Notes: generated by a model from the sequence alone, not told the origin. A DNA stretch of 40,257 bases from Synergistaceae bacterium (GCA_017451025.1 JAFSSM010000039.1:1-40257); one strand, 5' to 3'; shown: positions 18,278 through 40,257, counted from the first letter of the stretch. Program-made: numbers and translations.

Positions 18278-19023
18278 AGTTTGCGGCGGTAATAAGCTAT
18301 CTCGGCAAGAATTATTCGGGGTGGCAGGTTCAGCCCGATGCGCTGAGCGTGCAGGAAGTTCTGGAGGGAGTGCTCGCGAAAATCAACGAGGCACCAGTCA
18401 GAATCACAGGGGCAGGCCGGACAGACAGGGGCGTTAATGCTTGGGGGCAGGCCGCGTCGTTTTCGCTGGACAAGGACATAGCTCCCGAAAAGCTCAGGCT
18501 CGCAATGAACTTCTATCTGCCTGAGGATATACGGGTCATGAAGATTTTTGCGGTTCAGAGCGATTTTGACGCACGCAGGTCTGCACTTTGGAGGGAGTAT
18601 AGATATTTTGTGTGGCACGGCTGGGTGTGTCCTCCTGCGCTGAATAATTATGTGTGGTGGCGCAAGGGCAAAAACTGGGACATGGACATTGCACGAGAGG
18701 CATGCAGTATAATTCAGGGACGGCATAACTTCCGGGCTTTTTGCAGGGCCGGAGAATGCCCGGACGATCCATTCAGGACGATAGACCGACTCAAAATCAG
18801 GAACAGAGGCCCGCTCTCAATAATAACTGTCCGTGCTCAGTCGTTCTTGACCAACATGGTGCGGATAATCGTCGGAAATGTTAATGCTCTTGCTCTTGGG
18901 AAACAGTCCCTCGATTGGCTTGAAGGTCTTTTGTCGGGCGGAGAGCGGAGCGATTCTGCAATGACAGTACCGGCCTGCGGGTTGTGGTTCTGGAAAGTGA
19001 ATTACGGAAAGGAGTTAGCATGA
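18274..19023 (+). CDS. truA: tRNA pseudouridine synthase A
   Basis: 249 residues. TruA modifies uridines 38-40 of the tRNA anticodon arm. The catalytic aspartate lies in GAGRTDRGVNA (usual form AGRTDxGVHA), and RYFVWHG plus the conserved block GRHNFRAFC further support the call. ATG 18274 overlaps the hydrolase stop (ATGA) and its own stop overlaps the next start in the same way. In Firmicutes truA also follows ecfT, so the context agrees. Confidence 0.95.
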   Translation: MKFAAVISYLGKNYSGWQVQPDALSVQEVLEGVLAKINEAPVRITGAGRTDRGVNAWGQAASFSLDKDIAPEKLRLAMNFYLPEDIRVMKIFAVQSDFDARRSALWREYRYFVWHGWVCPPALNNYVWWRKGKNWDMDIAREACSIIQGRHNFRAFCRAGECPDDPFRTIDRLKIRNRGPLSIITVRAQSFLTNMVRIIVGNVNALALGKQSLDWLEGLLSGGERSDSAMTVPACGLWFWKVNYGKELA

Positions 19024-20120
19024 GCCTCATAGATGTTAAGGGATTGAGCAAGTCCTTCGGAAAGTTACAGGTGCTCCGTGATGTGAATCTCTCGGTTGAA
19101 GAGGGAGAACGCATAGCAATAATCGGAGGGTCAGGGTGCGGAAAAAGCGTGTTTCTGCGCTCGCTTGAGCTTCTGGAAATTCCAGACAGCGGCCACATTT
19201 TCATTGACGGCCAAGAAATCACGGCAAAGGGAGCTGACGTGAACAGAATACGCCGCAAAATGGGCATGGTCTACCAGAAATTTTATCTGTTCTCGCACAT
19301 GAACGTGATGGATAATCTGTGCCTGGCTCCCGTGAAACTCGCAGGAATTTCCAGGCAGGAAGCAGAAGCCCAAGCTATGGACTGGCTTGCGAAAGTCGGA
19401 CTTACCGCAAAAGCTCACGCAATGCCCGCGAATTTGTCCGGAGGCCAGCAGCAGAGAATAGCGATTTGCCGAAGCCTCATGATGAACCCGAAAGTCTTGC
19501 TGTTCGACGAGCCGACTAGTGCCCTTGACCCGACGATGGTGGGTGAAGTTCTGGCGATGATAAGGATGCTCACCAAGCACAGCATGACCATGTTAATCGT
19601 TACGCACGAGATGAACTTTGCACGTGAGGTTGCGGACAGGGTATTATTCTTCGCTGACGGGGGCATCTATGAGCAGGGGACTCCGGCAGAAATTTTTGAC
19701 TCTCCCAAGCGTGAAAAGACCATAGCGTTTATCCGCAAGCTCAAGTACTTTGCGTATGAGGTCAGGAACAGGAATTTTGACCTTATGGCACTTCATGGAG
19801 GCATAAGGAGTTTCGCGGAAAAGTACGGAATAAGTGCAAGGCTTGCGTACAGGCTGGAATTATGTTGTGAGGAACTGCTCTACGAGATGCTCGCAGGGTG
19901 TTATGCTGACGATGAGGCGGTGAAGATTGACGTTGAGGTGTCGTATTCGGAGGCCGATGGTTCGACAGCAATGATTATCACCAGCGGAGGAAGGAAGTTT
20001 GACCCGTTCAGCGTTGAGGACGACGATATCCACTTGGGAGTATCCATGCTGAGGAAGATTGCGAAAAACATTGCCTTCACGTTTTCTGAGGGAACAAACA
20101 GAATCGAGGTTGTCCTATGA
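19020..20120 (+). CDS. ABC transporter ATPase fused to an RsbW-like HATPase domain
   Basis: 366 residues. Residues 1-239 are an ABC ATPase of the polar amino acid (GlnQ-like) type: Walker A GGSGCGKS at 36-43, signature LSGGQQQR at 139-146, Walker B VLLFDEPTSALD, switch His in VTHE. Residues about 244-366 resemble an anti-sigma or serine kinase HATPase domain: an N-box-like helix (LELCCEELLYEML), a G1-like turn (SGGRKFDPF), a G2-like stretch (LGVSMLRKIAKNIAF) and a closing strand (NRIEVVL). The usual N-box Asn is not at its place, so kinase activity is doubtful. No permease or binding protein is nearby. Overlaps both neighbours by 4 nt. Confidence 0.85.
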   Translation: MSLIDVKGLSKSFGKLQVLRDVNLSVEEGERIAIIGGSGCGKSVFLRSLELLEIPDSGHIFIDGQEITAKGADVNRIRRKMGMVYQKFYLFSHMNVMDNLCLAPVKLAGISRQEAEAQAMDWLAKVGLTAKAHAMPANLSGGQQQRIAICRSLMMNPKVLLFDEPTSALDPTMVGEVLAMIRMLTKHSMTMLIVTHEMNFAREVADRVLFFADGGIYEQGTPAEIFDSPKREKTIAFIRKLKYFAYEVRNRNFDLMALHGGIRSFAEKYGISARLAYRLELCCEELLYEMLAGCYADDEAVKIDVEVSYSEADGSTAMIITSGGRKFDPFSVEDDDIHLGVSMLRKIAKNIAFTFSEGTNRIEVVL

Positions 20121-23737: not shown

Positions 23738-25030
23738 TTGTACAGAAAAATATTAGCGTCAATTTTGGGAGTGCTGGTCTGCGCAAGTGCGGCTGGTGCA
23801 CTTCCTTCACGCTATGACCTCAGGGATTACGGCAGAGTTACGGGCATCAAGAATCAGGGAGTGCCCGGACCGTGCTGGGCATTCGCGGCACTCGGAGCAA
23901 TGGAAAGCAATTACCTGACGCAGAACTTGGGGAAAGAACCTGACCTATCGGAGATGCAGTTAGCGTTCTACACGTACAAAGACCCCGACAGCAAACGCAA
24001 TTTTTCTCCGCTGCACAACTCGGGTACACTGAGGCTTGAGGGAGATATGTTTAGGGCGGCGGCATTCCTGATGAGACTATCAGGCCCTACGGACGAAAAG
24101 AATTTGCGCTACAATACCAACATGCCGGATTCCGAGAAGAAGGCTCTATCGAGAAAATCCCCCGAGAGCTTCAAGAGAAGTATGCGGCTTCGTGATGCAT
24201 ATTTTCTTGCTGGCGGCCAGGCCCTTAACGACACCCTCAGGAAGGAATTAATCATGAAGCACGGGGCAATCGCCGTGAGCATGTACAGCGACCCGCTCAA
24301 GTACCATATGCGCAACAAGCACTACACGTACTACAATCCCGAACACGGGAAAGAGACAGACCACGAAGTCCTGATAATCGGCTGGGACGATGATTTCCCG
24401 ATGGACAACTTCAAGCCGCACCCTTCACGCAATGGCGCTTGGCTGGTCAAAAATTCGTGGGGAACCATGCGCGGCAACGAGGACGGGTATTTCTGGATGT
24501 CCTATGACCAGCACACTTGGGGAGGTACTGCGTTCATCGTCGAGAGGGCTAACCCAAAACTCAAGCATTACGGCTACGATGACTTGGGTTATTGCGGGCA
24601 GGCAAATTATTCTTGGGGAGCAAACATCTTCAAGACCGAAGGCTCAAAGGAGACCCTCAAGGAAGCAGCTTTCTACGCTCCGAATAATAATCTGGGCTAT
24701 GAGCTTTACGTGTACGATCTTGGCTACAAAATTCCGTTCTCACCGATTGCTGGAAAATTAGTATCGAGTACCAGCGGCAGCATAAAACTCGCAGGCTACT
24801 ACACGATAACTCTTCCTGAGAGCGTGAGCCTTAAAGGCAGTCAGTATTTTTCTGTTGTGCTGAAATTATCGCGGGGCAATTTCCCTGTTGAGAAGGCACG
24901 TGCTTATTATTCTGGCAATGCTCAGGTGAACGAACGGGAAAGCTATTTTTCCAAAGACGGCAAGGTCTGGGTTGATGGAATAACCATAAAATCAAATGCC
25001 TGTGTCAAGGCTTTCACGATAACCAGATAA
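23738..25030 (+). CDS. Secreted papain-family (C1) cysteine protease with lectin-like C-terminus
   Basis: 430 residues. A signal peptide (about 1-21, ending SAAGA) is followed by the protease: oxyanion Gln40 in IKNQG, catalytic Cys46 in GPCWAFAALGAMESN, His209 in TDHEVLIIGWDDD and Asn239 in WLVKNSWG. The region after about 285 (GYDDLGYCGQANY, YELYVYDLG) resembles the lectin-like domain often found with such bacterial proteases. The substrate is unknown; no C-terminal membrane anchor is seen, so it may be released or periplasmic. The start is TTG 23738 with GAGGTG at 7-nt spacing. Confidence 0.92.
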   Translation: MYRKILASILGVLVCASAAGALPSRYDLRDYGRVTGIKNQGVPGPCWAFAALGAMESNYLTQNLGKEPDLSEMQLAFYTYKDPDSKRNFSPLHNSGTLRLEGDMFRAAAFLMRLSGPTDEKNLRYNTNMPDSEKKALSRKSPESFKRSMRLRDAYFLAGGQALNDTLRKELIMKHGAIAVSMYSDPLKYHMRNKHYTYYNPEHGKETDHEVLIIGWDDDFPMDNFKPHPSRNGAWLVKNSWGTMRGNEDGYFWMSYDQHTWGGTAFIVERANPKLKHYGYDDLGYCGQANYSWGANIFKTEGSKETLKEAAFYAPNNNLGYELYVYDLGYKIPFSPIAGKLVSSTSGSIKLAGYYTITLPESVSLKGSQYFSVVLKLSRGNFPVEKARAYYSGNAQVNERESYFSKDGKVWVDGITIKSNACVKAFTITR

Positions 25031-25099: not shown

Positions 25100-25660
25100 C
25101 TACTCTGCTTTCTCTGCGGGAACTTCTGGAACTGCTTCTGCCTTAGGTGCGGGAGGAACGTTGCGGTTAAGTTCCTGCTGTTTCCTGAACTCCTCGATAC
25201 GTTCAATCTTCTTCCCGAACTTCCACATATCTATTTCCTGCTCGGCCTTCTGAATCTGAGCGAATATAGCAACAGCTTTATCCTTGTTGACGGGCTTTTC
25301 GGAGAGTGCAGCGTCAAGGTCAATCCTCAGCTTTGCGGCCTCGACAGCCTTAGCCTTAATTTCTTCGGGCATATCCGGCGCAAACATCATTCCTCTGCGT
25401 TCGCCGCGTCTTCCGCACATTTCGCGCGGACCTCTTCCCTCAAACGGTGCGGGAGGCATTCCTGCCGGGCCTCTGCCCTCAAACTGCCTGCCCATACGCT
25501 GGTCAACGTTGGAACCGGGCATGTTCTGGGCGGCCTGTACTCCCTGACCCTGATTCATCGGGAGCCTGCGGGAATTGTCGCGTCCCTTAGGCTGGGCTAA
25601 TGCTGCTCCTGCTGCGAAAACTACACACACTACTGCTACAACTGCTAATACTTTCTTCAT
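25100..25660 (-). CDS. Secreted Spy/CpxP-like periplasmic protein
   Basis: 186 residues with a signal peptide (MKKVLAVVAVVCVVFAAGAALA, cleavage near residue 22). The middle is rich in Gly, Arg, Met and Pro with the repeat [QP]FEGRGP. The C-terminal half (about 94-165) is a charged helical segment (EEIKAKAVEAAKLRIDLDAA, AQIQKAEQEIDMWKFGKKI) like the helical hairpins of Spy, CpxP or ZraP, periplasmic chaperones and metal-stress proteins. It ends in a Pro/Ala/Glu tail. AAGGAGG precedes ATG 25660. The family assignment is by architecture only. It is the last of three secreted-protein genes on this strand. Confidence 0.65.
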   Translation of the reverse strand: MKKVLAVVAVVCVVFAAGAALAQPKGRDNSRRLPMNQGQGVQAAQNMPGSNVDQRMGRQFEGRGPAGMPPAPFEGRGPREMCGRRGERRGMMFAPDMPEEIKAKAVEAAKLRIDLDAALSEKPVNKDKAVAIFAQIQKAEQEIDMWKFGKKIERIEEFRKQQELNRNVPPAPKAEAVPEVPAEKAE

Positions 25661-25687
25661 GATATATTCCTCCTTAGAATTTATGTG

Positions 25688-25996
25688 CTATTTACTTTTT
25701 GGGGGCATAGGCAGCCTCTTGTCCCCACTCATCGGCGGGCGTTTACCGTCAAACTTAGGCAGTCTCTTATCCCCGCTCATGGGCGGACGCTTCTTGCCGT
25801 CAAACTCCGGCGGCTTCTTGTCGAAAGATGGTGCTCCTTTCGGCGGAAGGGGCGGACGTTCTCCCTGCTGAAACTCCATCGGCGGCTTCTTGGTGCTGGT
25901 GGTCGCCGCGTACTTCGGCATATCTTTTGCCAGTGCTGTACCTGCTATTCCAAGTACTCCTGCTAAAACTAAACCTGCTGCTACTTTACTCTTCAT
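25688..25996 (-). CDS. Small secreted Pro/Lys-rich repeat protein
   Basis: 102 residues. A signal peptide (ending GIAGTALA, residue 23) precedes a low-complexity region with the tandem unit PPMSGDKRLPKFDGK / PPMSGDKRLPMPP and KKPPEFDGK. The mature part is strongly basic and proline-rich, so it is probably extended and unfolded. I do not recognise the family. ATG 25996 has AAAGGAG at 9-nt spacing; an upstream in-frame start at 26017 would spoil the signal peptide. Lies 27 bp before the Spy-like gene, likely co-transcribed with it. Confidence 0.7.
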   Translation of the reverse strand: MKSKVAAGLVLAGVLGIAGTALAKDMPKYAATTSTKKPPMEFQQGERPPLPPKGAPSFDKKPPEFDGKKRPPMSGDKRLPKFDGKRPPMSGDKRLPMPPKSK

Positions 25997-26017
25997 GATT
26001 ACTGCTCCTTTCTGCAA

Positions 26018-26404
26018 TTACCATCTCGGCGGCGGAGGCATATGTCTTGGTCCGTGCGGATGGTGAGGCGGCTGTGGAGGCATATATCCCTGAGGGCCTC
26101 CAGGTCCGAAATTGTGCCGGTCTCCTGCAAAGTGCATCTGAGGGGGCGGCATGTGTCCTCTTGGCCCGGCCTGCGGCGGCGGCATATGCCCTCGCGGGCC
26201 TCCCTGCGGAAGGGGCGGTGGCGGAGGAGTTCCGGGTCCTCCCTGCGGATAACCGTACCCGCCTGCGTCGTCATGGTTGCGGCTGAAAACTATATCTACC
26301 TTGTCAAGCTCGATACCTCCTGCTCTCGCTGGAAGGCTTCCGCAAATTACGCTTCCTGCTATTGCGACTGCTAAAGCTGCTGCATACTTCCTTGTGTGCT
26401 TCAT
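26018..26404 (-). CDS. Small secreted His/Pro/Gly-rich protein
   Basis: 128 residues. A signal peptide (ending SLPARA, near residue 28) is followed by a short folded-looking stretch (GIELDKVDIVFSRNHDD) and then a low-complexity tail with repeated RGHMPPPQ, QGYMPP and a final histidine cluster (PPHHPHGPRHMPPPP). Histidine and methionine spacing suggests binding of copper, nickel or zinc in the periplasm, but this is inference. ATG 26404 is set by AAGGAGG; the longer start at 26428 lies before that site. It is the gene next to the divergent response regulator. Confidence 0.7.
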   Translation of the reverse strand: MKHTRKYAAALAVAIAGSVICGSLPARAGGIELDKVDIVFSRNHDDAGGYGYPQGGPGTPPPPPLPQGGPRGHMPPPQAGPRGHMPPPQMHFAGDRHNFGPGGPQGYMPPQPPHHPHGPRHMPPPPRW

Positions 26405-26504
26405 TTTTGTTCGACCTCCTTGCTTCAACGCTGATAGAATAACTCTGTTTTATGAACGCAATGTGAAATGAAAATGTGATTCTTGTGAAGGAGGCTGTTG
26501 TTTC
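26405..26504. promoter_or_regulatory. Divergent promoter region with TGTGA repeats
   Basis: A 100-bp gap between the secreted-protein operon (minus) and the response regulator (plus). AATGTGA occurs at 26460-26466 and again at 26473-26479 (13-bp step), with a third TGTGA at 26484-26488, next to the regulator's ribosome site. Direct repeats are the usual binding pattern of OmpR-type regulators, so these are candidate autoregulatory sites. Promoter hexamers cannot be assigned with confidence. Confidence 0.35.
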
Positions 26505-27188
26505 ATGAAACTCTTGATTGTTGAGGACGAAGCCGCTATCGCTGAAGTCCTCTGCGCTTACGCCAAACGTGAAGGCTACGATACCGTTTATGCCGCCGAC
26601 GGGTTGTCCGCAATAGACATCTTCACTCATGACGATATTGACCTGGTGATTCTTGACCTGATGCTACCGAAACTCAGCGGAGAAGAAGTGTGCAGGAGAA
26701 TACGCGAGAAGTCCAGCGTACCCATCATCATGCTTACGGCCAAGTCCAGCGAGTCGGACGTGGTTGAAGGTCTTGATCTGGGTGCGAATGATTACGTCGC
26801 AAAACCATTCAGCCCGCGTGTACTGATGGCCAGAGTCAGGGCACAGCTCCGGCCAAGAGAATCCAGAGGGAATATTGCGTCAGGAGTATGTGCTGACGGA
26901 AGGATCGAGATTGACCCCGAAAGAGTCGAAATACGCAAGGACGGAACGCCAATTCCCGTAACTAAGAGCGAGTTCCTTATTTTCTCGACGCTGGCTTCGC
27001 GTCCGATTCGCACATGGTCGCGTGAAGAGATAATCCGTACCGCACTGGGTGATGATTACGACGGCTTCGACAGGACCATTGACACGTACATTAAGAACCT
27101 CCGCAAAAAATTAGCCGAACCTGGCCACGAAAACGGCTGGATAAAGACCGTTTACGGTTTTGGCTACAGGTTCGACGATGAAAAATAG
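26505..27188 (+). CDS. OmpR/PhoB-family response regulator
   Basis: 227 residues. The receiver domain has acidic pocket VEDEA, phospho-acceptor Asp51 in LVILDLMLPKLSG, the Thr in IIMLTAK and Lys100 in YVAKPFS. The winged-helix output domain follows (LIFSTLASRPIRTWSREEI, ending IKTVYGFGYRFDD). It should bind DNA repeats as a dimer when phosphorylated by the kinase downstream. GAAGGAGG precedes ATG 26505. The gene overlaps the kinase by 11 nt. Divergent secreted-protein genes are its likeliest targets. Confidence 0.95.
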   Translation: MKLLIVEDEAAIAEVLCAYAKREGYDTVYAADGLSAIDIFTHDDIDLVILDLMLPKLSGEEVCRRIREKSSVPIIMLTAKSSESDVVEGLDLGANDYVAKPFSPRVLMARVRAQLRPRESRGNIASGVCADGRIEIDPERVEIRKDGTPIPVTKSEFLIFSTLASRPIRTWSREEIIRTALGDDYDGFDRTIDTYIKNLRKKLAEPGHENGWIKTVYGFGYRFDDEK

Positions 27189-28551
27189 ATCCCTTAGGGC
27201 ACATTTCCTGTGGCTGTACGTCCTGCTGGCTATCCTCTCCGGAATAGTTGTCCCTGCTCTGAGCGCTTGGTTCAGCGTAAATACATTCAGGACACTGCAG
27301 ATTCAGAGGAGGCAGGCGGATATTGAGAACCTGAGCGATTCTCTGGCGGCACTCTTCACTGAAGAAGGCGGGGTCTGGAAGCGCAGGAGAGTGATGGACA
27401 TTCTGCGTCCTGCCCCTCAGTGGGGAGGAATGACCATAATGCTTATTGATGCCGCCAATCACGAAGTCTTCACTCTGCGTCCGATGTCCCAGATGCAGCG
27501 AAGAAGCGGGCATAATTCACAGCCTGAACCTGTGCAGGGAGCAACCGAACACATCACGGTAAAACTTGGCCGTGCCGGAGAAATAGGCAGGCTCGAAATT
27601 GAGCGGTATATTCCCAGCGGCAGGTATGAACTGTCGTTTATCTCGTACCTGACGCGATACACACTCTACGGTGCGTTTATCATGATAGCGATTGCCTGCG
27701 GTCTGGGGTATCTGGTGTCCGGAAGACTGAGCCGTCCGGTGATTCAGGCTATTAACCGCACAAAGAGCATTGCGCACGGAGAATATGACGCTCATGAAGT
27801 TATGCCCTCCGTCGGGATCAGGGAACTCGACGCACTAACGAAAGGAGTCGAGGACTTGGGACGTTCGCTAGCCGCTCAGGAGAAGTTAAGACGCAGACTC
27901 ATGGTAGATGTTGCCCACGAACTGCGGACACCCCTCACGGTTTCGCGCACACAGCTTGAGGCGATCGCTGACGGAATACTCGACCCCACTCCGGAGAGAT
28001 TGACGTTGTGCGTGAGCGAGATGCAGAGACTAGCCGACCTAATCGGTAACATCGACTCGCTGACACGACTTGAGGCTGAAGTGATTACCCTGCACACTGA
28101 GAGCACGGACATGCTGGAATTTCTGGAGCCTGTAGTTGAGTCGTTCAGGCCGGTGTTCGCGAAGTCTGGAATAACTCTAACCGCGAATCTTGAGGCCGGG
28201 TGCGTGTGCGAAGTTGACAGGGACAATTTCAGGCACGTTATCGATAACCTGTTGAGCAATGCCCTGCGCTACACTGACGAAGGAGGAAAAGTTGAGGTGA
28301 AACTCGCACGTGAGACCAAGAAGGTGAAGATTCGAGTGAGCGATTCAGGAATCGGTATAGCGGAAAAGGATTTGCCGAACATCTTCGAGCGATTCTACAG
28401 GGCTGACGAGTCGAGGACGAGAGTTACCGGCGGGAGCGGGGTAGGGCTTGCGATCGTGAAGGCATCAGTTGAGGCACACGGCGGGAGCATTACGGTTGAG
28501 AGCGTGAAGGGTGAAGGAAGCACATTCACGATAACTCTTAACGCGGCGTAA
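27178..28551 (+). CDS. Sensor histidine kinase (BaeS/CpxA-like architecture)
   Basis: 457 residues. Transmembrane helix 1 is near residues 11-33, a periplasmic loop of about 130 residues follows (Arg-rich RPMSQMQRRSGHNSQ), and helix 2 is near 162-182, then HAMP, then His247 in DVAHELRTPL. The ATP domain has N-box DNLLSNALRY, G1 DSGIGI, F-box IFERFYRAD and G2 GGSGVGLAIV. It should autophosphorylate and pass phosphate to the regulator. ATG 27178 lies in the regulator's last codons. The periplasmic loop shows no family I recognise, so the signal is unknown. Confidence 0.94.
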   Translation: MKNRSLRAHFLWLYVLLAILSGIVVPALSAWFSVNTFRTLQIQRRQADIENLSDSLAALFTEEGGVWKRRRVMDILRPAPQWGGMTIMLIDAANHEVFTLRPMSQMQRRSGHNSQPEPVQGATEHITVKLGRAGEIGRLEIERYIPSGRYELSFISYLTRYTLYGAFIMIAIACGLGYLVSGRLSRPVIQAINRTKSIAHGEYDAHEVMPSVGIRELDALTKGVEDLGRSLAAQEKLRRRLMVDVAHELRTPLTVSRTQLEAIADGILDPTPERLTLCVSEMQRLADLIGNIDSLTRLEAEVITLHTESTDMLEFLEPVVESFRPVFAKSGITLTANLEAGCVCEVDRDNFRHVIDNLLSNALRYTDEGGKVEVKLARETKKVKIRVSDSGIGIAEKDLPNIFERFYRADESRTRVTGGSGVGLAIVKASVEAHGGSITVESVKGEGSTFTITLNAA

Positions 28552-28623
28552 ATTGTGAATAAGCGAGAGTAAGAATCTGCGTGAGCTGGTAAACCCTTTT
28601 GTTGCAAGCAGTAAGTAAAACTC

Positions 28624-28650
28624 TTGACAAAAAAAAAAGTTTGGTAAGAT
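28624..28650 (+). promoter_or_regulatory. Promoter of the cysteine-repeat peptide gene
   Basis: A perfect -35 box TTGACA (28624-28629) is followed by an extended -10 (TGG plus TAAGAT, hexamer at 28645-28650). The spacer is 15 nt and holds most of a run of ten A (28629-28638). It lies in the 139-bp gap after the histidine kinase, 41 bp upstream of the peptide start, and shows the RiPP locus has its own strong promoter. Confidence 0.75.
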
Positions 28651-28690
28651 GATGTTCACAATCCCATCAACACAGAAAGGAGTGAACACC

Positions 28691-28882
28691 ATGAAGCCGG
28701 ACAGAAGTAGTTACTCAAAGTTATTCGCGTACGGTCTTGACTGCGAGCGTCCAATCGGCGGAAGCTGTGTCGGCAACTGCAGGATAGTATCCCAGAATCT
28801 CGACTGCATGCGTCCAATTGGCGGAAACTGCACAGGCAATTGCAGGATCGCAGACACTCATGCGGCAGGACTCGTGTGGTAA
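28691..28882 (+). CDS. Six-cysteine repeat peptide, likely radical SAM RiPP precursor
   Basis: 63 residues from ATG 28691 with AAAGGAG nearby. A short leader (about 1-15, KPDRSSYSKLFAYG) is followed by two copies of a unit: LDCxRPIGG[SN]CxGNCRI at residues 16-32 and 37-53, giving Cys at 18, 26, 30 and 39, 47, 51. Each unit is Cys-x7-Cys-x3-Cys and repeats every 21 residues. There is no signal peptide or double-Gly leader end. The tail is ADTHAAGLVW. Two radical SAM/SPASM enzymes follow directly, the usual context of ranthipeptide or other thioether RiPP precursors. I do not recognise the RPIGG family; modification is inferred. Confidence 0.85.
   Translation: MKPDRSSYSKLFAYGLDCERPIGGSCVGNCRIVSQNLDCMRPIGGNCTGNCRIADTHAAGLVW
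28736..28849 (+). repeat. Tandem 63-nt repeat inside the peptide gene
   Basis: The two 51-nt core units (28736-28786 and 28799-28849), spaced 63 nt apart, match at 40 of 51 positions by eye. Most differences are silent or swap one variable residue (E/M, S/N, V/T), which implies selection on the encoded Cys and RPIGG pattern after an internal duplication. Confidence 0.85.
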
Positions 28883-28899
28883 GAAGTTTTGATTATTTC

Positions 28900-28933
28900 G
28901 GGCTGTCAGGAAATTTCACGGCGGCCCTTTTTT
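28900..28933 (+). terminator. Hairpin with T-run between the peptide gene and its maturases
   Basis: GGGCTG at 28900-28905 pairs with CGGCCC at 28922-28927 (one G-U pair), enclosing a loop with the small palindrome GAAATTTC, and is followed by six T (28928-28933). It lies 17 bp after the peptide stop and 25 bp before the first maturase start. A leaky terminator here would give much more peptide than enzyme mRNA. Confidence 0.75.
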
Positions 28934-28958
28934 CGTGCCAAAATTCAGGAGGAAACAC

Positions 28959-30251
28959 ATGCAATATTCACTTCCACAAGACATATGCGCAAAAAGTTAC
29001 GGAGGGTTCATGCTGATAATTTCCCCTTCTTCCGGAAACTGGATAGTTCTCGACTCCCAGCAGCAAGTAGACATTCTCAAGAGCATTATTGACGGCCTTA
29101 CACTCGAAGAAGTTCGTGAACGCTTTGATGTTCAGGAAGTCGCAAAGGTATGTGCGCAGATTGAGGGGAGAAATTTTGTGCGGGCAGTTCCGGAGCCAGA
29201 AGAGGCATTCACACTCAGGCTGTACATGACCAACAAATGCAATCTCAGATGCACACACTGCTTCATGTACGCGTCCGAAGCACTCAATGACGAATTGACC
29301 ACAGACGAAATTCTCCGTCTGCTTGAGGAGTGCAGGAGCTGCGGCTGTGTGAAGGTAATACTCACCGGCGGAGAAGTCCTAATGCGCAAAGATTTCGGTG
29401 ATGTCGTGAGGGCTGCGGACTCTCTGGGAATGTACGTCCAGGTGCTCACGAACGGTACTCTCTGGACGGAACAGAGCGTCAGGGAATTATCGCCATACAT
29501 TGACGAGGTGCAGGTGAGCATAGACGGCTACGATGAGGCCAGCAACGCGGAGATTCGCGGTCGCAACACGTTTGCTCTTGCAATGAACGCGCTGGATATG
29601 TTCACACGAAAACAGAACATCTTCACTAGTGCGGTAATCACTCCAACGTATGAGGGCCTGGAGGCTCACCGAAAGGACTATACCGACTTCATGAAGGGAC
29701 TTGCGGCCAAGTACAGAGACAGGAATTTTCTTGTGATAATGCAGAACGAATTGATAGACGGTCGCAATCTTAAGGCAGACCCGGAACGCAACAGGCTTAT
29801 GACTCAGACGGTGAAGGCCATTCACGAGGAAGTGTACGAGAACAGCGAATTGACCGCATTCATCATGAACCACAGGGACGGACGAATCTTCTGGAATTGC
29901 GGCTACGGGAATCTTACGGTGAGTTCAACGGGGGATGTGTATTTCTGCGGCAGGGTGCATGACGTGAAGAGGTATGCGAACATCAGAGAAACTCCGCTCG
30001 GCGAGATTATGACGCTGAGAAGTCGTGTGCGGAGATTTTCGGGAGTGGATTACGTTATGCCGTGCAGAGAGTGTGAGGTGAGGTATGTGTGCGGAGGAGG
30101 CTGCAGGGTCAAGAATTTTCCGGATGCTGTTTGCGCAGAAAACGGGGACTTCGGAGCAAGAGTCTTTACGCGCAAGAATGAGTGCACTCCGCAGGATAAA
30201 GAGAACATCTACCGGCTGATGATTGAGGCAAATTCCTTCCTGATGAGGTGA
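28959..30251 (+). CDS. Radical SAM/SPASM peptide maturase with N-terminal RRE-like domain
   Basis: 430 residues from ATG 28959 (AGGAGGA upstream). Residues about 15-75 (GFMLIISPSSGNWIVLD, then ILKSIIDGLTLEEVRERFDV) resemble a PqqD-type peptide-recognition domain. The radical SAM 4Fe-4S motif is C94, C98, C101 (NKCNLRCTHCFMY), and TGGEVLMR is the SAM-binding GGE. The SPASM region has Cys in FWNCGYGNL and YFCGRVHD, then CRECEVRYVCGGGC and a final Cys, for auxiliary clusters. Placed after the six-Cys peptide, it probably makes thioether or C-C links on it. The reaction is inferred. Confidence 0.88.
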   Translation: MQYSLPQDICAKSYGGFMLIISPSSGNWIVLDSQQQVDILKSIIDGLTLEEVRERFDVQEVAKVCAQIEGRNFVRAVPEPEEAFTLRLYMTNKCNLRCTHCFMYASEALNDELTTDEILRLLEECRSCGCVKVILTGGEVLMRKDFGDVVRAADSLGMYVQVLTNGTLWTEQSVRELSPYIDEVQVSIDGYDEASNAEIRGRNTFALAMNALDMFTRKQNIFTSAVITPTYEGLEAHRKDYTDFMKGLAAKYRDRNFLVIMQNELIDGRNLKADPERNRLMTQTVKAIHEEVYENSELTAFIMNHRDGRIFWNCGYGNLTVSSTGDVYFCGRVHDVKRYANIRETPLGEIMTLRSRVRRFSGVDYVMPCRECEVRYVCGGGCRVKNFPDAVCAENGDFGARVFTRKNECTPQDKENIYRLMIEANSFLMR

Positions 30252-30258
30252 TTAGAGA

Positions 30259-31584
30259 ATGAAGCTGTCCGATTACGTCAAAGTTTTCACGATGAATGAC
30301 GGAACACACGCGTACTACCACAGCCTTAGAATGATTCCTGTCTACCTGAACGAACACGAACACTCAGAACTTCAAGCCTCACTCACAGCAGGAAGACCTC
30401 CATCACTTCCGCAGAGCACTCTTGAGGCACTGACGGAGTGCAGGATTCTCGTTGACGACGAGCCGGAATTGCTGGAGGCTGTGCGGAAACTCGTGCCTGA
30501 ACCGTATATCTGCATGGCGTACTTCATCCTGACGGAACAGTGCAATTTGGCGTGCAAGTATTGCTTTCTCGGAAATGCAGGGAAGAAGCCCAGAGTCACA
30601 AACTACCCTATGAGTAAGGAGACAGCGGAGAAGGCGTTAATGTTCTTCGCAGAGCAGACCCGAAAAATCCCCAAATACTTCGGCGAGGAGAAGACTATAA
30701 TCTTTTACGGCGGCGAAGCATTGCTGAATTTCGAGACTCTGCGCTTCACCGTTGATAAGTGCCGTGAACTCCAGGCCAGAAGACTCATTACACGCAATCT
30801 CTCCTTCATGATGGTTACGAACGGCCTGCTGCTCTCTCCTGAAAAAATAGCCTTCCTGAGGGATAACAACGTAAGTGTGTCGATTTCGCTTGACGGTGCA
30901 GATGAACGCGCCAACTCCTCCAGAATAGACAGATCCGGAAGAACAGTATATAGCCGCGTGCTCGAGGCATTGAGGCTCTGTATTTCGATGGGGCTTAACG
31001 TCAGCTTGTCGGTAACCCTCACGGAAGAATCGCTCGACGGAATGGACGCACTAATCACTCTGCTTCAGGAGACAGGGATAAATTCACTGTGCTTCAACAT
31101 TCTGCAGAGAACAGGGGATTTCTTCGTCAGAGATGAGTATTACGTCAGAGCCTCGAGATTCTTGGCCGAGTTTTACCGCAGAACTAAGAGTCTGGGCATA
31201 TATGAGGAACGCTTCATGAGGAAGCTGAAGGCTTTTGCGAATCAGAGGCTATACTTCGCGGACTGCGGTGCCTGTTCGGGCAATCAGATAGTCATCACGC
31301 CGGACGGACAAGTCGGGATCTGTCAGGGCTGTACAGAAGACAGAAGGTATTTCGTGACGGACATCAATCACCCGGAATACGACCTGCGCAACGATTCAAC
31401 GGTAAGGGAATTCGTGAAGAGGTCTCCGGTTTTCCGTGAAGAATGCGTGAAGTGTGAGGCACTTGGTCTGTGTGGCGGAGGCTGTCCGGTCAATGCTCCG
31501 GAAACGTTCTGCACTCACGCAAAATACACTCTGCAATTCCTGATTAATGAGCTGTATTCGGTTATGCACAAACAAGCCCAATAA
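30259..31584 (+). CDS. Second radical SAM/SPASM enzyme of the peptide locus
   Basis: 441 residues starting 7 bp after the first maturase. An N-terminal region of about 85 residues (HAYYHSLRMIPVYLNEHEH) lacks cysteine motifs apart from one Cys and is typical of SPASM peptide maturases. The cluster motif is C95, C99, C102 (EQCNLACKYCFLG), with FYGGEALLNF as GGE motif. SPASM cysteines occur in DCGACSGN, GICQGC, CVKCEALGLCGGGC and FCTHA. The general form resembles anaerobic sulfatase-maturating enzymes and ranthipeptide synthases. The enzyme differs clearly from its neighbour, so the two may do different steps. No sulfatase gene is nearby. Confidence 0.87.
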   Translation: MKLSDYVKVFTMNDGTHAYYHSLRMIPVYLNEHEHSELQASLTAGRPPSLPQSTLEALTECRILVDDEPELLEAVRKLVPEPYICMAYFILTEQCNLACKYCFLGNAGKKPRVTNYPMSKETAEKALMFFAEQTRKIPKYFGEEKTIIFYGGEALLNFETLRFTVDKCRELQARRLITRNLSFMMVTNGLLLSPEKIAFLRDNNVSVSISLDGADERANSSRIDRSGRTVYSRVLEALRLCISMGLNVSLSVTLTEESLDGMDALITLLQETGINSLCFNILQRTGDFFVRDEYYVRASRFLAEFYRRTKSLGIYEERFMRKLKAFANQRLYFADCGACSGNQIVITPDGQVGICQGCTEDRRYFVTDINHPEYDLRNDSTVREFVKRSPVFREECVKCEALGLCGGGCPVNAPETFCTHAKYTLQFLINELYSVMHKQAQ

Positions 31585-32794: not shown

Positions 32795-34363
32795 TTAATG
32801 TTTGCGGAATTTGATGATGAGGAGGATTACCGCGAGGCTTCCTGTGAAGATTCCAGTGTTACAGCCTCCGGCGAGGAGAGCGATGATGATTTTGGCGAGG
32901 TATACGCTGAAAGGAGTACCAGCATCGAGGAAACCGACCATGAGGAACTCTTTTGTGCCGAAAGAATCGAGTTTGTCGCCGTTGAGGGTGAAAAGTTCCC
33001 ACGTACTGAGTAATCCGGACAGCAACGAGACACTCACGCCTGCGTGGTCTTTGCTGCTGAGTGCGTAGAACTTGAAGTCAGAGACACTCTGAGTGCCCAA
33101 TAGCTGGTATAGTTCGTCAGTAAGAGTAATCTTGAAGACGTAATAGCCTTGTGTGTTTGCGCTAATGGTGCTAAGTTTGCCGTTTATTTCGTAGCCGTCA
33201 GACTTGACGTAATCAGTAATTTCCTGCGTTGGTTCTTTGGGGGCAGATATATTAGCTTCCGACAGTTCGTGAATCTGTGAAGGGTCAGTGCTGAGAGTCT
33301 GAGCGATTGCTTCGAGGACTTGAGGCTCAAGGCTCACGGGGTGGATTATACCTTCGGGCAGCTCTGAGTGAACATCCTGTGAAGTAGTGTCCGGCTGAGT
33401 GGTGGGGTTATCAGGCTGTGGCTCAACGGGCAAAGCTGAACCGTCTCCTATCGCAGGGTACTCCGAAGGCCAAGTGTTGCCGGAGAAGTTAGCTCTGCTT
33501 GCATCTGTTACGGAGCCTGCAACTCCTCCCTTGAAGCTAGCGTTGCCCGTGAGAGTAGCGTAGGTATTGCAGTCTGTGATAGTGGTTGTACCGTCAGGGT
33601 AGCCACCGACACTAATACCAACATCCCCAGCTATACCTCCTGCAGCGTGTGAGGCCTCTACTGTCGACCCGGAAAGCACGGTGCAGTTCTCTATGCTTCC
33701 CGCTGTGATTTGCCCCTACTATTCCCCCAGCAGTTCCCTGAATTATCCCCGTGCCTCTGACTGTCCCGCTGAATGTGCAGTTTCTCACAGCTGACTCACC
33801 GTAAAACGAACCTGCATGACCTGCTATACCTCCTGCAGATACGGAGTAACTATCTTCTGTCGTGCGCACACTCTCAACTGTTCCCGTGAATGTGCAGTTC
33901 TCTATAACGCCAGCCTGCAGCTCTTCAACTATGCCTCCAACGACGTTGCTGCCTGACACATTACCTGTAACGTTAAGATTCCTGATCACTGTGGATGTAC
34001 CCCTAACGTGAAAGAAAGTCCCAACAGCGAAAGCATAGTCATCCGGATTGCTCTGTATGTTTACCTTCACTGTGTGATTCTGGCCGTCAAACTGTCCGGC
34101 AAATACAGGATGATTTGCAGAGCCTGAGCCGGTAAATGTTGCCGTTGTCATGTCCAGGTCTGCCGTGAGCTTGTAATACTTTCCTCCCCGCCGACGTTAG
34201 TATTCTGCCTCATACGAAGAAAGTCTTCCGGAGAGGCTATGATGTACGCAGTCTCCCAACTGTCCCCGTTGTTCCCTTCATTCCAGTACTCCGCAAGAGC
34301 AGGAACACTACACACCACAGCCACCATTGCCGCACAGAACATCACTATTACTTTCTTCATCAC
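32795..34363 (-). pseudogene. Surface protein with GLUG-type repeats and Synerg-CTERM-like anchor, two frameshifts
   Basis: Three frames together make one protein of about 520 residues. It has a signal peptide (ending VCSVPALA), repeats of the GLUG type (GGIVEELQAGVIENCTF, GGIAGHAGSF, AGGIAGDVG) and a Pro/Thr linker. A C-terminal domain follows, then GTPFSVYLAK, GGCNTG, a hydrophobic helix and the basic end KFRKH, resembling the Synerg-CTERM sorting signal. A missing base in a C4 run (plus strand 34186-34189) shifts the frame; an extra base in a second C4 run (33713-33716) shifts it back. Repairing both restores a smooth protein (GGGKYYKLTADLDM and GGIVGQITAGSIENC). AGGAGGA lies before ATG 34363. 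Confidence 0.8.
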
Positions 34364-34673: not shown

Positions 34674-34920
34674 AAAACTTTTCCGTTAATGTCTTCTGTG
34701 CATAACGAGAATAACTGCTCCCACAGCAACAACCCCCGCAATTCCGAAGCACGCATCGCAGCCGCCCATCAGCAGCGCAACAATCAGCTTAGTCAGGTAA
34801 ACGCTAAACGGTGTCCCCGCGTTCAGGAAACCTACCATCAGGAACTCTTTTGCACCGAACTCCAGCTTCTCGCCCGTCAGCGTCAGCATCTCCCACGTGT
34901 TCAGCAAGCCCGTGATGAAC

Positions 34921-34942
34921 GATGCACTAACGATGCACTAAC
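34921..34942. repeat. Perfect 11-bp tandem duplication causing a frameshift
   Basis: GATGCACTAAC occurs twice in a row (34921-34931 and 34932-34942), and a partial third copy (AAC) precedes it. Removing one copy joins the main frame to the anchor frame, giving EVSASFITGLLNTWEMLTL, which aligns with VSVSLLSGLLSTWELFTL in the neighbouring surface protein. Confidence 0.95.
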
Positions 34943-37199
34943 CTCTGCATTTCCGGATTCTCCGTTGTCGTGGAGCACATATGCCTTCAAGTCCTCTACC
35001 TTAACGCCCTTGATGTGCTGTTCATACAGATCGTCGGACAAAACTACTTTCAACACATAATACCCGTCCTGACTCACTAACAGCGTGTTCATCTTGCCCA
35101 CTAGATCGCTCTCACGGCTCTTCATTTCGTCGAGCATTGCCTGTGTCGGGTCTTGCGGGTCGTGAATATTTTCCTTCTCAAGCACTTTCAGCTCATCAGC
35201 CGAAATGTTCACAGTATCCGCTATTTTTTCCAGAAGGGCATCGTCCGGCGTAAATGCCTGAATGCTCCCTAGCCCAAGCTCCTTTGGTGCAGTTACTACC
35301 CCTCTGTGAGTCCGGCCGGAACTCAGCCTGAGTGCCGCATACACTACTTTTCCTGCAGGAACTTCCTTAATTTCCCTGCCGCTCTCGTCGAAGAATGCGT
35401 ACTCCATATCCTCAAGCGCAGAGGAATTGACCTGACTGCTTCCTGTTATTCCGTGAAGTTCAAGCCTCGTGCCCTGTGAAACCTCCAGCAGAGTCAGCTT
35501 CAGCAAGTACACTCCATCTCTAGCCGGACGAATTTCCGGCAATGTCATAACTACGCGCAAGTTCCTGTCCGAAATTGCCTGAATGTCCGCTTGTCCGACC
35601 TGCCACGTCTGAGAGATTATCTCTTGTTGTGTGAGCTGGTAGACATTCTCCACTCCAAAGAACGACGCTACTCCATCACGAAGTCCATCTGACATTTGGA
35701 ACGTGTAATCCATGAAGTTACGGTTACCGTTCCTGCTTACTCTGGTTACGGTGATTATCGCCTGGCCGGATATTCTCGTGCCGTCAGACTTTATCGCGTT
35801 TACATTCACAGAATGATTCCCTGTCAGAGTATCGTACGGAATTGTTCCGGTGATTGTGTTATCGTGCGAAGACAGGACGGCCAAGTCGGACGTGAAGCTC
35901 CAGCTCCGTATTCCCTCTGCGTCGAAAGTTATTGCCGTAATTTCCGACCCTTCCTGCACGGTCTGTGAGGCAGGAGTCAGCTCGAGGCTTGATGCATCAT
36001 TCCCGACCTCATAGTCAGCTTCGGTGAAGGAGTTGCTGTTGATGTTTTCGCGCTCCGCATCAGAGAATCCCGCAATGCCTCCTGGATATTTTGCGCTAAT
36101 CGCCGCGTTCGACGAACACCCTATGATTTCGCCGTCAGACACATAGCCCGCAATGCCTCCTGCTGAATAATCAGCGTATATCTCCGAACCTGGAAGCACC
36201 TTGCAGTTCCTGATTGTACCTCCGGATAGTTCGCCGACAATTCCTCCGGCCGCAGAGTTCTCGCCGCTGGCGGACAGGCTTCCGGTGAATGTGCAGTTGT
36301 CGATTATTCCGCTAATGAGTTCTTTGGCGATTCCTCCTGTACTTCCGGTTGCGGCGGATGCCCGGACTTCGGAGGAACTGGTGCTTGCAGTCATTTGGAC
36401 ATGGAGATTCTGGACGGCAATACCGTTAGTCCGGATTATTCCGAACATGCTTATTGCGGCGGAACAGGTTATTGTTTTGCCAGCACCGTCGAAATGTCCC
36501 GTAAATGGATGCTCGCTTGTTCCGAGAGGCTGCCAGTTCCTTATGACGGAAATATCGATGTCTGCATAGAGTGCGTAGTATTGGCCGATGGGTTCCGTGC
36601 CGCTGTTTATCCTGCCGAGAAGAGCGAGAAGTGCACTCGCCGAAGTCAGCCTGACAGGATTATTCTGCGAACTGCCCGTTGATTCTTGGGTGTAGTCGGT
36701 GGAAGGTGTTTGTGAAGGTTCAGGCTCAGAAGAGGGAACATCTCCACTCTGCGGTGCTGAATCTCCGCTCACAGGATTAACGTCATTGCTCGCTGGTGCA
36801 ACGTCTTCACTACTGACCGAAGGGGCTTGTGGTTCGGGCTGTTCTTGAGGTGTATTCTGTTCCTGCGGTGAATACTGTGCATACGGGTTATTGTCTGCGG
36901 TTGAATCTGAGCCGGAATTGGTCTCAGAAATTCTCTCTGCTTCTCCTGTAACTCGCACGTCCATCGATGAGATTGATGTTCCTGTGTCGTAGTAGTAAGT
37001 AAGTTCTGAGGGAGCGGCGGCAAAATAGAGCATTCCTGCGCCAATATCTGCGGAATATGTCATGTCTGGAGAGATGGCAAATCCTGAGACGTTGGAGACA
37101 AATTCCGAAATGCTCATAGGCAGGCCGAGCGTGGACTTTGCGGAATTGAGGTTGAGGACGTAGGGATAACCGGAGACTGACGAGGCATCAACTGATAGT

Positions 37200-40060
37200 G
37201 TGAGTTCTTGGCCGGAAGCCTCGAGAGTAGTAAGTGCGGAATTGGCGGAGAGATCGAGTGCGGCTAAACGGTTGCCGTTGCAGTTCAGCTCCTCCAAAGA
37301 AGTGTTGTTGCTGAGATCTAGATTCGTGAACTGGTTGCCGTAACATATAAGGTATACCAAATTTGTATTCAGACTAAGGTCTAAGGCCGTCAACTGGTTA
37401 CCGCCGCATTCAAGTCCTGTCAAAGCGGAATTGTTGCGCAAATCTAAAGCGGTCAGCTTATTTCCATCGCAATCCAGATTCCTCAATTCGGAATTACTGC
37501 TCAAATCCAGAGCAGATATTTCGTTTCCGCCGCACCATAGCCGCCTCAAAGCTGTATTGCTGCTTACGTCTAAGGCAGTGAGGTGATTCCTGTGGCAGGC
37601 CAGCGTCTGCAAATAGGTGTTCTTGCTCACGTCTAAGGCTGTCAGCTGGTTATCGCTGCAGTCCAGCGTATCCAAATAGGTATTGCTGCTCACATCAAGA
37701 GTGGTCAGCTTATTTTGGCCGAAGACCAGACTCCGCAAAGCTGTATTTTTGCTGACATCTAAGGCCGTAACATCATTTGAGCCGATGTCCAATATTTCCA
37801 GAGCCGTGTTATTGCTCAAGTCGAGAGCGGTTAAGTGAGTGTAGTTGCAGAGAATTTCCGTCAGTGCCGTATTGTTGGTAACATCTAAGACGGTCAAATT
37901 GTTGGAACCGCACAGCAGATTCGTCAATGCTGTGTTATTGCTAACATTGAGTGAGGTTAATTGATTCCCCCAGCAGTTGAGGTATGTCAAGTCCGTGCAG
38001 CTGCTAACGTCTAAAGCCGCTATTGCGTTCCTGCTGCAATCAAGACTGATTAACGCTGTGTTATTGGTTACGTCTAAAGCCGCTATTTCATTACCAGCGC
38101 AGACCAGCTCAGTTAATGACGGGTTGCTGTTAACGTTGAGAGCTGTCAACTGGTTGCTGTTGCAGTCCAAAAACGTCAATGCTGTGTTGCTGCTAACGTC
38201 GAGGGTGCTTAACTGGTTTTCGCCGCAGTCAATAAGTTCCAATGCTGTATTGCTGCCAACGTTGAGTTCGGTCAGCTGGTTGCTGTTGCAATCTAGACTT
38301 ACCAGCAAAGTGTGAAGACTCACGTCAAGAGCGGCTATCTGGTTGTTGCTGCAATTCAGATCGGTCAAGTATAGATTCTGGCTGATGTCTAGAACGGTCA
38401 GCTGGTTGCTGTTGCAGTGCAGATAACTCAAACCGCTATAGGGATTGCTGTTGCCGCCGCCGTAAGCCGAATCCTCCGCCGCTGTAACCAAACTGCTGTA
38501 CTGAACATGCCAGTCAATAACTGAATTACTCAAGTTTAGCGTGGTCAGCTGGTTTTGGGAGCAATCCAGCACCTCCAAATGTGTGTTGCTCACGTCAAGT
38601 GTGGTTAATTGGTTGTAGTTGCACCTTAGTTCGGCCAACGCTGTGTTGCTGCTCACATCAAGTTCTGTTAGCTGGTTTCCGCCGCAGTTCAGCTCGGACA
38701 AATATGTGTTGCTATTTACATCGAGTGCGGATAGCTGGTTGTTGTAACACCAAAGCCCCGCTAAATTTGCACTCCTGCTCACATCAATAGTGCTTATTTG
38801 GTTATTGCCGAAGTTAAGCTCCGTCAACGCCGTATTATTGCTAATGTACAACGCCGTAATCTGGTTATCGTGGCAATACAGCTCCGTCAAGTCAGGATTA
38901 TTGCTAACATCCAACGCCGTCAATTGGTTCCAGCCGCAATACAGGTGAATTAGTGCCGTATTACTGGAAGTGTTTAGTTCGGTCAACTGGTTGTTGTGCG
39001 CGACAAGGTCAAGCAGCTCGGTGCAGCCGTTCACGTTTAGCTTCGTCAGATGGTTATAGCGGCAGAGCAGCCCCGTCAATTTAGGGTTATTGCTCAGGTC
39101 TAGTTCTGCCAGTTCGTTGTTGTCGCAATTCAGATGATCCAAAATTGCACAGTTGCTCAGGTCTAGTTCTGTTAGTGCGTTGCTGTCGCATTCCAAAGTC
39201 GTCAATTCTGTGTTATTGCTCAGGTCAAGTGTAGCTATCTGATTGTCGCGGCATCTCAATTCCGCCAATATTGGGCTGTTGCTCACATCAAGGGCCGCTA
39301 TCTGATTGTAGCTGCAGTTGAGATATGCCAAGCTGGGGTTATTGCTAACATCAATTGTAGTCAGGTACCTTGTCTCTCTCTCTCTATAATGCGAGCCGTT
39401 GCAATCCAGGTACGTCAAAGCCGGATTATGACTCACATCCAGTTCTGTCAGGAGAGTTTGCTGGCACTCCAGGCGTTCCAGCTGGGTATTGCTGCTCAAG
39501 TCAATAGCCGCTATGCTGGTGTAGCCGAAATCCAGTTCCTTCAAGAGCGGGTTATTGCTCACATCAAGAGCTGTTAATCCAGAATTACCGCCGCATCGCA
39601 AATATTCCAGAGATGGATTGTTGCTAACATCCAATACGGTGAATTGATTATTATTATCCCAAAGACCATAGCAATCCAAGTTCGTCAAATTCGGGTTGCT
39701 GCTCACATCCAGCTCCGTCAATTTATTGAAGGCGCAATTCAGTACCCTCAACTTGGGATTATTGCTAACGTCAAGCTGAGTAAGTGAGCTCCCGTAAATT
39801 AACAGTTCCTCGAGATCCGGATTATTGTAGACGTAAAGAGTTGTGAGCTGGTTGAATTCGCCAGATGTATACGCGACGGAATCACCATAATTATTATTGA
39901 GGTTAATCCGCTTCAGTGCAGGATTGCTGCTCACATCAAGGGCAGTCAGTAGATTATTTTCACAAGCCAAGTACTCCAGAAGGACATTGCTGCTCACATC
40001 AAGCTCACTGATATTGTTATACGAGCAGCTCAACGATGTTAGCGACGTGAATTTATCAAT
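37200..40060 (-). repeat. About 43 tandem 63-bp coding repeats (leucine-rich repeats)
   Basis: The repeat period is 21 codons. Most units read close to [TP]xLxxLxCxxNxLTxLDVSxN. A few carry insertions (near residues 70, 140, 225 and a longer one near residue 540). The DNA copies are similar but not identical, so copy number could change by recombination, and short-read assembly here may be unreliable. Confidence 0.9.
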
Positions 40061-40234
40061 ACCGCTCAGTGAATATATACCCATGCTGTCAACATTTATC
40101 GTGCTGACCGCCGCAATCTCCTCATCGCTCAAACTTCCGTCGCTGTCGCTGTCGAAATTGCTGCTCACATACTCCCTGAACACGTCATCAGGAAAATTCG
40201 CCGCGTCAATAGTCAAGGAAGATGAGCCAGGATC

Positions 40235-40257
40235 GGGGGGGGGGGGGGGGGGGGGGG
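40235..40257. other. Terminal run of 23 G at the contig end
   Basis: The window ends in 23 consecutive G. This is the typical look of a two-colour sequencing artefact at a contig edge, although a true G/C tract in the missing 5' part of the surface-protein gene cannot be ruled out. It should not be translated. Confidence 0.8.

Follow-up and report, generated by a model that had tools for sequence, protein, structure and literature searches.

The FibroRumin system is defined in NCBIfam by two models, a precursor (TIGR04135, cut-off 45 bits) and a radical S-adenosylmethionine (SAM) maturase (TIGR04136, cut-off 400 bits). Gut and oral bacteria from numerous phyla carry its maturases. We found no paper mentioning the family by name or by the accession TIGR04136, and likewise none for StsB, another maturase family that matters here. 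SkfB and CteB have been described as thioether-forming enzymes bearing a RiPP (ribosomally synthesized and post-translationally modified peptide) recognition element, or RRE (review PMC8326336). The joint action of two radical SAM enzymes on one RiPP is precedented (PMC12093266). Thuricin CD and ruminococcin C each involve two such enzymes per product (PMC12093266, PMC8188230), both being one kind of sactisynthase. The locus described here lies in a stretch of 40,257 nucleotides from a Synergistaceae bacterium (GCA_017451025.1, JAFSSM010000039.1:1-40257; contig C25 of a 2.35-Mb genome), called the window below. It is a cassette of three genes, all on the + strand: a short Cys-rich peptide followed by two radical SAM/SPASM enzymes, rSAM1 and rSAM2, which unlike those of thuricin CD and ruminococcin C belong to different families. 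Judged from its sequence, this cassette is a rare, divergent dual-maturase branch of the computationally named FibroRumin system with a new core, rather than a new class.

The precursor gene (28691..28882, ATG at 28691, stop at 28882) is preceded by AAAGGAG, which resembles a ribosome-binding site. It encodes 63 residues (MKPDRSSYSKLFAYGLDCERPIGGSCVGNCRIVSQNLDCMRPIGGNCTGNCRIADTHAAGLVW) comprising a leader of approximately residues 1-16, two core units and a C-terminal LVW. Its six Cys are arranged as two C-x7-C-x3-C units, CERPIGGSCVGNCR (unit 1, 28742..28783) and CMRPIGGNCTGNCR (unit 2, 28805..28846), recognized by unit conservation and as direct repeats of each other; the 51-nt direct repeat covering unit 1 is 80% identical to unit 2. 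The preliminary description had singled out this peptide, and a survey of the window bears this out: of its 518 stop-to-stop frames reaching 40 aa or more, no other contains two C-x7-C-x3-C matches. Homologues are found in two other species of the genus (71% identity in G037 and 65% in G015). Among the three Synergistota peptide genes, whose synonymous sites are saturated (pS 0.82-0.91), pN/pS amounts to 0.23-0.31, about as low as in the enzymes or lower. This conservation and this constraint indicate that the frame is a real gene. Seven units from four genomes share the pattern C-x-R-[PT]-I-G-G-x-C-x-G-N-C-R, in which 10 of the 14 positions are invariant (C1, R3, I5, G6, G7, C9, G11, N12, C13 and R14) and position 4 is P or T.

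The peptide matches neither the FibroRumin precursor model nor, as had been proposed, a SCIFF precursor, and Pfam, NCBIfam and PHROGs gave no relevant family match. No relative was identified when genome contigs were scanned with the peptide alone. One peptide-profile match in the phylum scan (G166, E 0.004) falls in a 567-aa frame and was discarded as chance. The maturases might also process other, unlinked peptides, the cassette peptide being one of several substrates: some ordinary FibroRumin loci do carry two to four different precursors per maturase. However, the genome has no other copy of the peptide and the cassette no other Cys-rich frame, and we consider such wider use quite improbable.

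Among 188 Synergistota genomes, the peptide is present in three and rSAM1 in the identical three, always adjacent, while TIGR04136 members occur in five; an rSAM2 homologue is found in 5 of 151 genomes. G037 and G015, from the same genus as the window, carry the whole cassette with gene order kept. A fourth cassette, L014, belongs to an uncultured clostridium (rSAM1 46% and rSAM2 44% identical), and its 36-aa peptide (MTANKDNAKKMFGTNTSCSRTIGGRCVGNCRKTGTR) has a single unit carrying TIGG. The RPIGG-type core and rSAM1 are therefore found together in 4/4 loci (the RPIGG loci) from two phyla. The scan of genome contigs brought 35 FibroRumin-family rSAM2 relatives (L014-L048). Of the genomes with a FibroRumin-type rSAM2, 22 were searched for rSAM1; only that of L014 has a close one, the genome of L039 having a distant one on another contig. 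When rSAM1 was sought around L014, in 46 genomes at class level and 398 at phylum level, only L014 itself and two distant forms, accompanied by other peptides, were returned. No rSAM1 relative was found in viral contigs, nor in 394 genomes of a Ruminococcus-type order, a search run without a positive control. At the sequence level, the pairing of peptide, rSAM1 and rSAM2 and the genetics of the cassette are well supported. The earlier suggestion of a radical SAM RiPP layout is supported. So is that of the peptide as substrate, since peptide and enzymes keep strictly together, side by side, in all four genomes; a lack of co-occurrence, which would have refuted the earlier proposal, was looked for and not found. 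The pairing also bears on another possibility, that the peptide serves as a small protein of the CxxxC type for metal binding or redox reactions and that the enzymes act elsewhere. The C-x3-C pairs with Gly and Asn could bind metal, and the cassette has no exporter or protease, but strict association with two SPASM maturases, the FibroRumin-like leader of L014 and the annotation of ordinary relatives as RiPP precursors make such a function very improbable.

The gene rSAM1 (28959..30251) encodes an StsB/SkfB-like radical SAM/SPASM maturase with a putative N-terminal RRE, identified from its family score, its solved relative and its orthologues. The radical SAM motif CNLRCTHC is intact and seven SPASM-type cysteines are present (C314, C330, C369, C372, C378, C382 and C409); Pfam returns Radical_SAM, as well as SPASM over its cut-off. 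The best family is StsB (NF045574), with a match extending over the N-terminal region too, and the closest solved relative by sequence is SkfB. However, the score of 143 bits (122 for G037, 121 for L014) falls below the cut-off of 625, and the cassette precursor is unrelated to any model. Orthologues in the other RPIGG loci are 60, 55 and 46% identical, the last being that of L014. By gene content rSAM2 alone suffices in ordinary FibroRumin loci, so that rSAM1 might be a passenger and the real system an rSAM2 with a divergent peptide. This is hardly credible given that rSAM1 is constrained (pN/pS 0.33-0.36), retains all cluster cysteines and tracks the RPIGG core in every locus of both phyla.

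The closest other rSAM1 relatives (33-38% identity) are linked to different short peptides and to SNF2-type helicases (L078, L080, L125 and L126). Short Cys-containing peptides such as MKEIKLTWVVKKVEDTSRVNAMYCFKSCSANQN lie upstream of the enzyme in three of these four loci. They differ from the cassette by the helicase gene that follows the enzyme (detected by Pfam in L078 and L125) and by the lack of an adjacent rSAM2. In the rSAM1 tree the SNF2-linked enzymes group (88/99) beside those of the RPIGG loci, the root and exact order being unsure. They may constitute a separate RiPP family in their own right, with an StsB-type rSAM1-like enzyme and peptides such as MKEIKLTWVVKKVEDTSRVNAMYCFKSCSANQN, MKKVTVSWKVKKVKNSARINTMYCFKSCERNQN and MILTWNVVGEDQRLIHSFGCFKCCCVMAKGSAAFTDH, which have no NCBIfam match. 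Candidate members are L078 5968-9752 (Treponema saccharophilum plasmid pTS1), L080/L081, L125 5189-9261 and L126.

The gene rSAM2 (30259..31584) encodes a FibroRumin-family radical SAM/SPASM maturase with an N-terminal RRE-like domain, an assignment drawn from TIGR04136, a predicted model and a tree. The motif CNLACKYC is intact and the C-terminal tail is Cys-rich; Pfam detects Radical_SAM, SPASM being weak and under its cut-off. The earlier report of two adjacent radical SAM genes with Cys-rich tails is thus borne out, both enzymes having an intact CxxxCxxC motif, a Radical_SAM match and SPASM cysteines. The window rSAM2 scores 417 bits against TIGR04136, just over the cut-off, with 416.6 bits for G037, 448 for L014 and 261.7 for the G015 sequence, which is cut by the contig end; all three complete sequences from RPIGG loci therefore pass. 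The four form one clade (support 100/99) despite coming from two phyla. Among characterized systems, rSAM2 resembles CteB, the SCIFF maturase, which is its closest solved structure, and PapB, a ranthipeptide maturase and its second-best family, but its scores are below cut-off for both (TIGR03974, 99 bits for a cut-off of 425; PapB model NF047865, 129 for 340).

The rSAM2 model (pLDDT 88) has a beta-beta-beta-alpha-alpha-alpha N-terminus and aligns with CteB over nearly its length. The solved structures nearest to it are SPASM enzymes that modify peptides; after CteB comes TigE, followed by anSME and ChlB. TigE is a cyclopropyl synthase acting on an Ile in TIGSVS repeats. The fold match and the invariant I-G-G of the unit (TIGG in L014) raise the possibility that one enzyme cross-links while the other performs a different reaction on the peptide, such as a C-C linkage, epimerization or cyclopropane formation at Ile-Gly-Gly. 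The Gly-Tyr-Trp (GYW) motif marks cyclopropyl synthases. This motif does not appear in the auxiliary-cluster region of either window enzyme (CGYGNLT in rSAM1, CGACSGN in rSAM2), and cyclopropane chemistry was set aside for lack of it. By sequence CteB ranks first, with a better score than TigE. Since all six Cys are invariant, sulfur chemistry is indicated, and a division between cross-linking and some other reaction appears unlikely.

Comparison with ordinary FibroRumin loci clarifies the position of the cassette. Likenesses include an rSAM2 over the TIGR04136 cut-off, a short Cys-rich precursor just upstream, the C-terminal Trp of the three Synergistota peptides and the C-x-G-[NQ]-C motif, one class of ordinary peptides carrying C-[IVM]-[GSA]-Q-C. 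The leader of L014 (MTANKDNAKKMFG) fits the YxxMFG-type leader: none of 5000 shuffles scored as well against a YxxMFGNI-type leader, compared with 30 for G015 and 126 for G037. The core, however, is a spaced C-x7-C-x3-C repeat instead of a Cys-dense run, and a second maturase is added. TIGR04135, which matches six ordinary precursors at 33-93 bits, gave no match up to E 10 to the window, G037, G015 or L014 peptide, and with a full-length HMM of ordinary precursors the RPIGG peptides were not above chance, except weakly those of L014 and the window. The complete rSAM2 sequences of RPIGG loci score 416-448 bits, against about 800 for two ordinary Synergistota members. These are Fretibacterium fastidiosum (G048, L036) and Synergistaceae RGIG3411 (G028, L040), which have two Cys-dense peptides, rSAM2, then a UvrA-like ATPase.

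The 33 ordinary loci (L016-L048) carry Cys-dense peptides, and rSAM1 is not adjacent in any of them. The UvrA-like ATPase (about 700 aa; ABC_tran and UvrA_DNA-bind), which is not part of the formal FibroRumin definition, directly follows the maturase in 31/33, but is absent from all three RPIGG loci with the downstream side present. In a Campylobacter plasmid (L122 6394-8487), a hypothetical protein of similar size stands where this ATPase would be. The preliminary description had considered the class possibly new as a whole. This part is not supported, because rSAM2 passes the TIGR04136 cut-off and L014 has a FibroRumin-like leader before an RPIGG-type core. For the same two features L014 is regarded, on sequence criteria, as a bridge. 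A more novel reading, which we hold to be rather unlikely, is a hybrid RiPP system in which maturases of two lineages were joined, each being accompanied elsewhere by a peptide and a large ATPase peculiar to it (UvrA-like in one lineage, SNF2-like in the other). The two would then make chemically different Cys cross-links in each repeat, for instance one at C-alpha and one at C-beta or C-gamma.

The whole cassette (28552..31584, + strand, boundaries approximate) has a conserved histidine-kinase gene upstream and a nitronate-monooxygenase (NMO)/FabK-like gene downstream. In 17 genomes of the same genus the site is empty, the kinase homologue being followed directly, after a short gap, by the NMO/FabK-like homologue. 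The intergenic DNA of these relatives is similar up to the vicinity of the kinase stop codon and again from approximately 31550-31570, within the last rSAM2 codons. The empty sites and these break points show that a segment of roughly 3 kb was inserted here, and that it brings no recombinase with it. It occupies other sites in G037 and G015, and the gene after rSAM2 differs: the NMO gene in the window, a different open reading frame in G037 and an APH-like kinase in L014 (the G015 contig ends within rSAM2). The empty site shows that the locus was gained as an accessory element, and a mobile cassette is the best reading of it.

We think it probable that this three-gene mobile RiPP cassette encodes two enzymes which cross-link cysteines in each repeat. 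The peptide would be made in excess from its own promoter, while a hairpin would lower expression of the two maturases. A putative sigma-70 type promoter lies at 28624..28653 (+ strand; TTGACA at 28624, 10/12 consensus matches). The preliminary description had already given the peptide a promoter of its own. In its favour, TTGACA is found 61-74 bp before the peptide start codon in 4/4 loci; however, the second hexamer is weak and, taken by itself, the consensus scan does not exceed chance (4 matches against an expectation of 2.9). Between the peptide and rSAM1 genes, the sequence GGGCUGUC...GGCGGCCC (28900..28933, + strand) forms a hairpin (-17.5 kcal/mol, z -2.3) followed by a U run. A hairpin is present at this place in all four loci (z -2.7, -1.5 and -5.1 for the other three), with U runs in the window and G015. 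It is not among the matches of the terminator pattern scan of the window, and probably acts as an attenuator.

The short leader at the start of the peptide (roughly MKPDxxSYxKLF) would then be bound by the N-terminal RRE domains of both enzymes, which would modify every C-x-R-[PT]-I-G-G-x-C-x-G-N-C-R unit. Each of them, rSAM1 as an StsB/SkfB sactisynthase type and rSAM2 as a FibroRumin/CteB/PapB type, would abstract H from a peptide carbon and join it to a Cys sulfur. Up to six thioether links, with 2 Da lost per link, would yield a compact two-unit peptide. The labour may be divided: rSAM2 would act on the C-x-G-N-C half, given its similarity to the C-x-[GSA]-Q-C found in ordinary FibroRumin peptides; the C-x-R-P-I-G-G half, which occurs only together with rSAM1, would be left to that enzyme. 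Maturation would end with cleavage and export by general functions.

Several points weigh against this scheme. The bond type cannot be read from the enzyme sequences, and both enzymes score far under the cut-offs of every chemically characterized maturase family. No Pfam RRE/PqqD match was found in either N-terminus; the beta-beta-beta-alpha-alpha-alpha arrangement of rSAM1 (10-68) comes from a poor predicted model. The window leader is weakly FibroRumin-like (107 of 5000 shuffles are as good; hhalign E 2.4e-4, probability 44%). Finally, only four cassettes were found, three of them inside one genus.

The surroundings of the cassette include further genes. The preliminary description reported neither exporter nor protease nearby. 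There is no dedicated exporter, the C39 exporter of this genome being only on another contig, but a gene at 23738-25030 encodes a secreted cysteine protease of the papain family that carries a lectin-like domain at its C-terminus (PF00112 and PF18560). This protease, probably unrelated, and the upstream two-component system (26505-28551) were both rejected as cassette parts, as the flanks differ in other species. Three small secreted Pro/Gly/Met-rich proteins (25100-26428, minus strand) are encoded divergently from the two-component system, an arrangement that brings to mind a periplasmic stress or metal operon. Further upstream, a polar-amino-acid type ABC ATPase (18984-20120) seems, as judged by eye, to carry a GHKL/anti-sigma-like ATPase domain as a C-terminal fusion. 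On the other side, a very long leucine-rich-repeat surface-type protein (34901-40255, minus strand) runs off the contig end; the frames beside it (32795-34363) are of similar repeat-type sequence and look interrupted.

The product would have an accessory role, in competition or signalling. The finding merits bench work, with the chemistry of the FibroRumin parent family in view. This branch offers a short and simple repeat substrate, including a natural one-unit version of 36 residues in L014. It is also a natural experiment, the addition of a second enzyme coinciding with a new core. One can thus ask directly which reaction a FibroRumin maturase carries out, and how work on a single peptide is shared between two dissimilar radical SAM enzymes.

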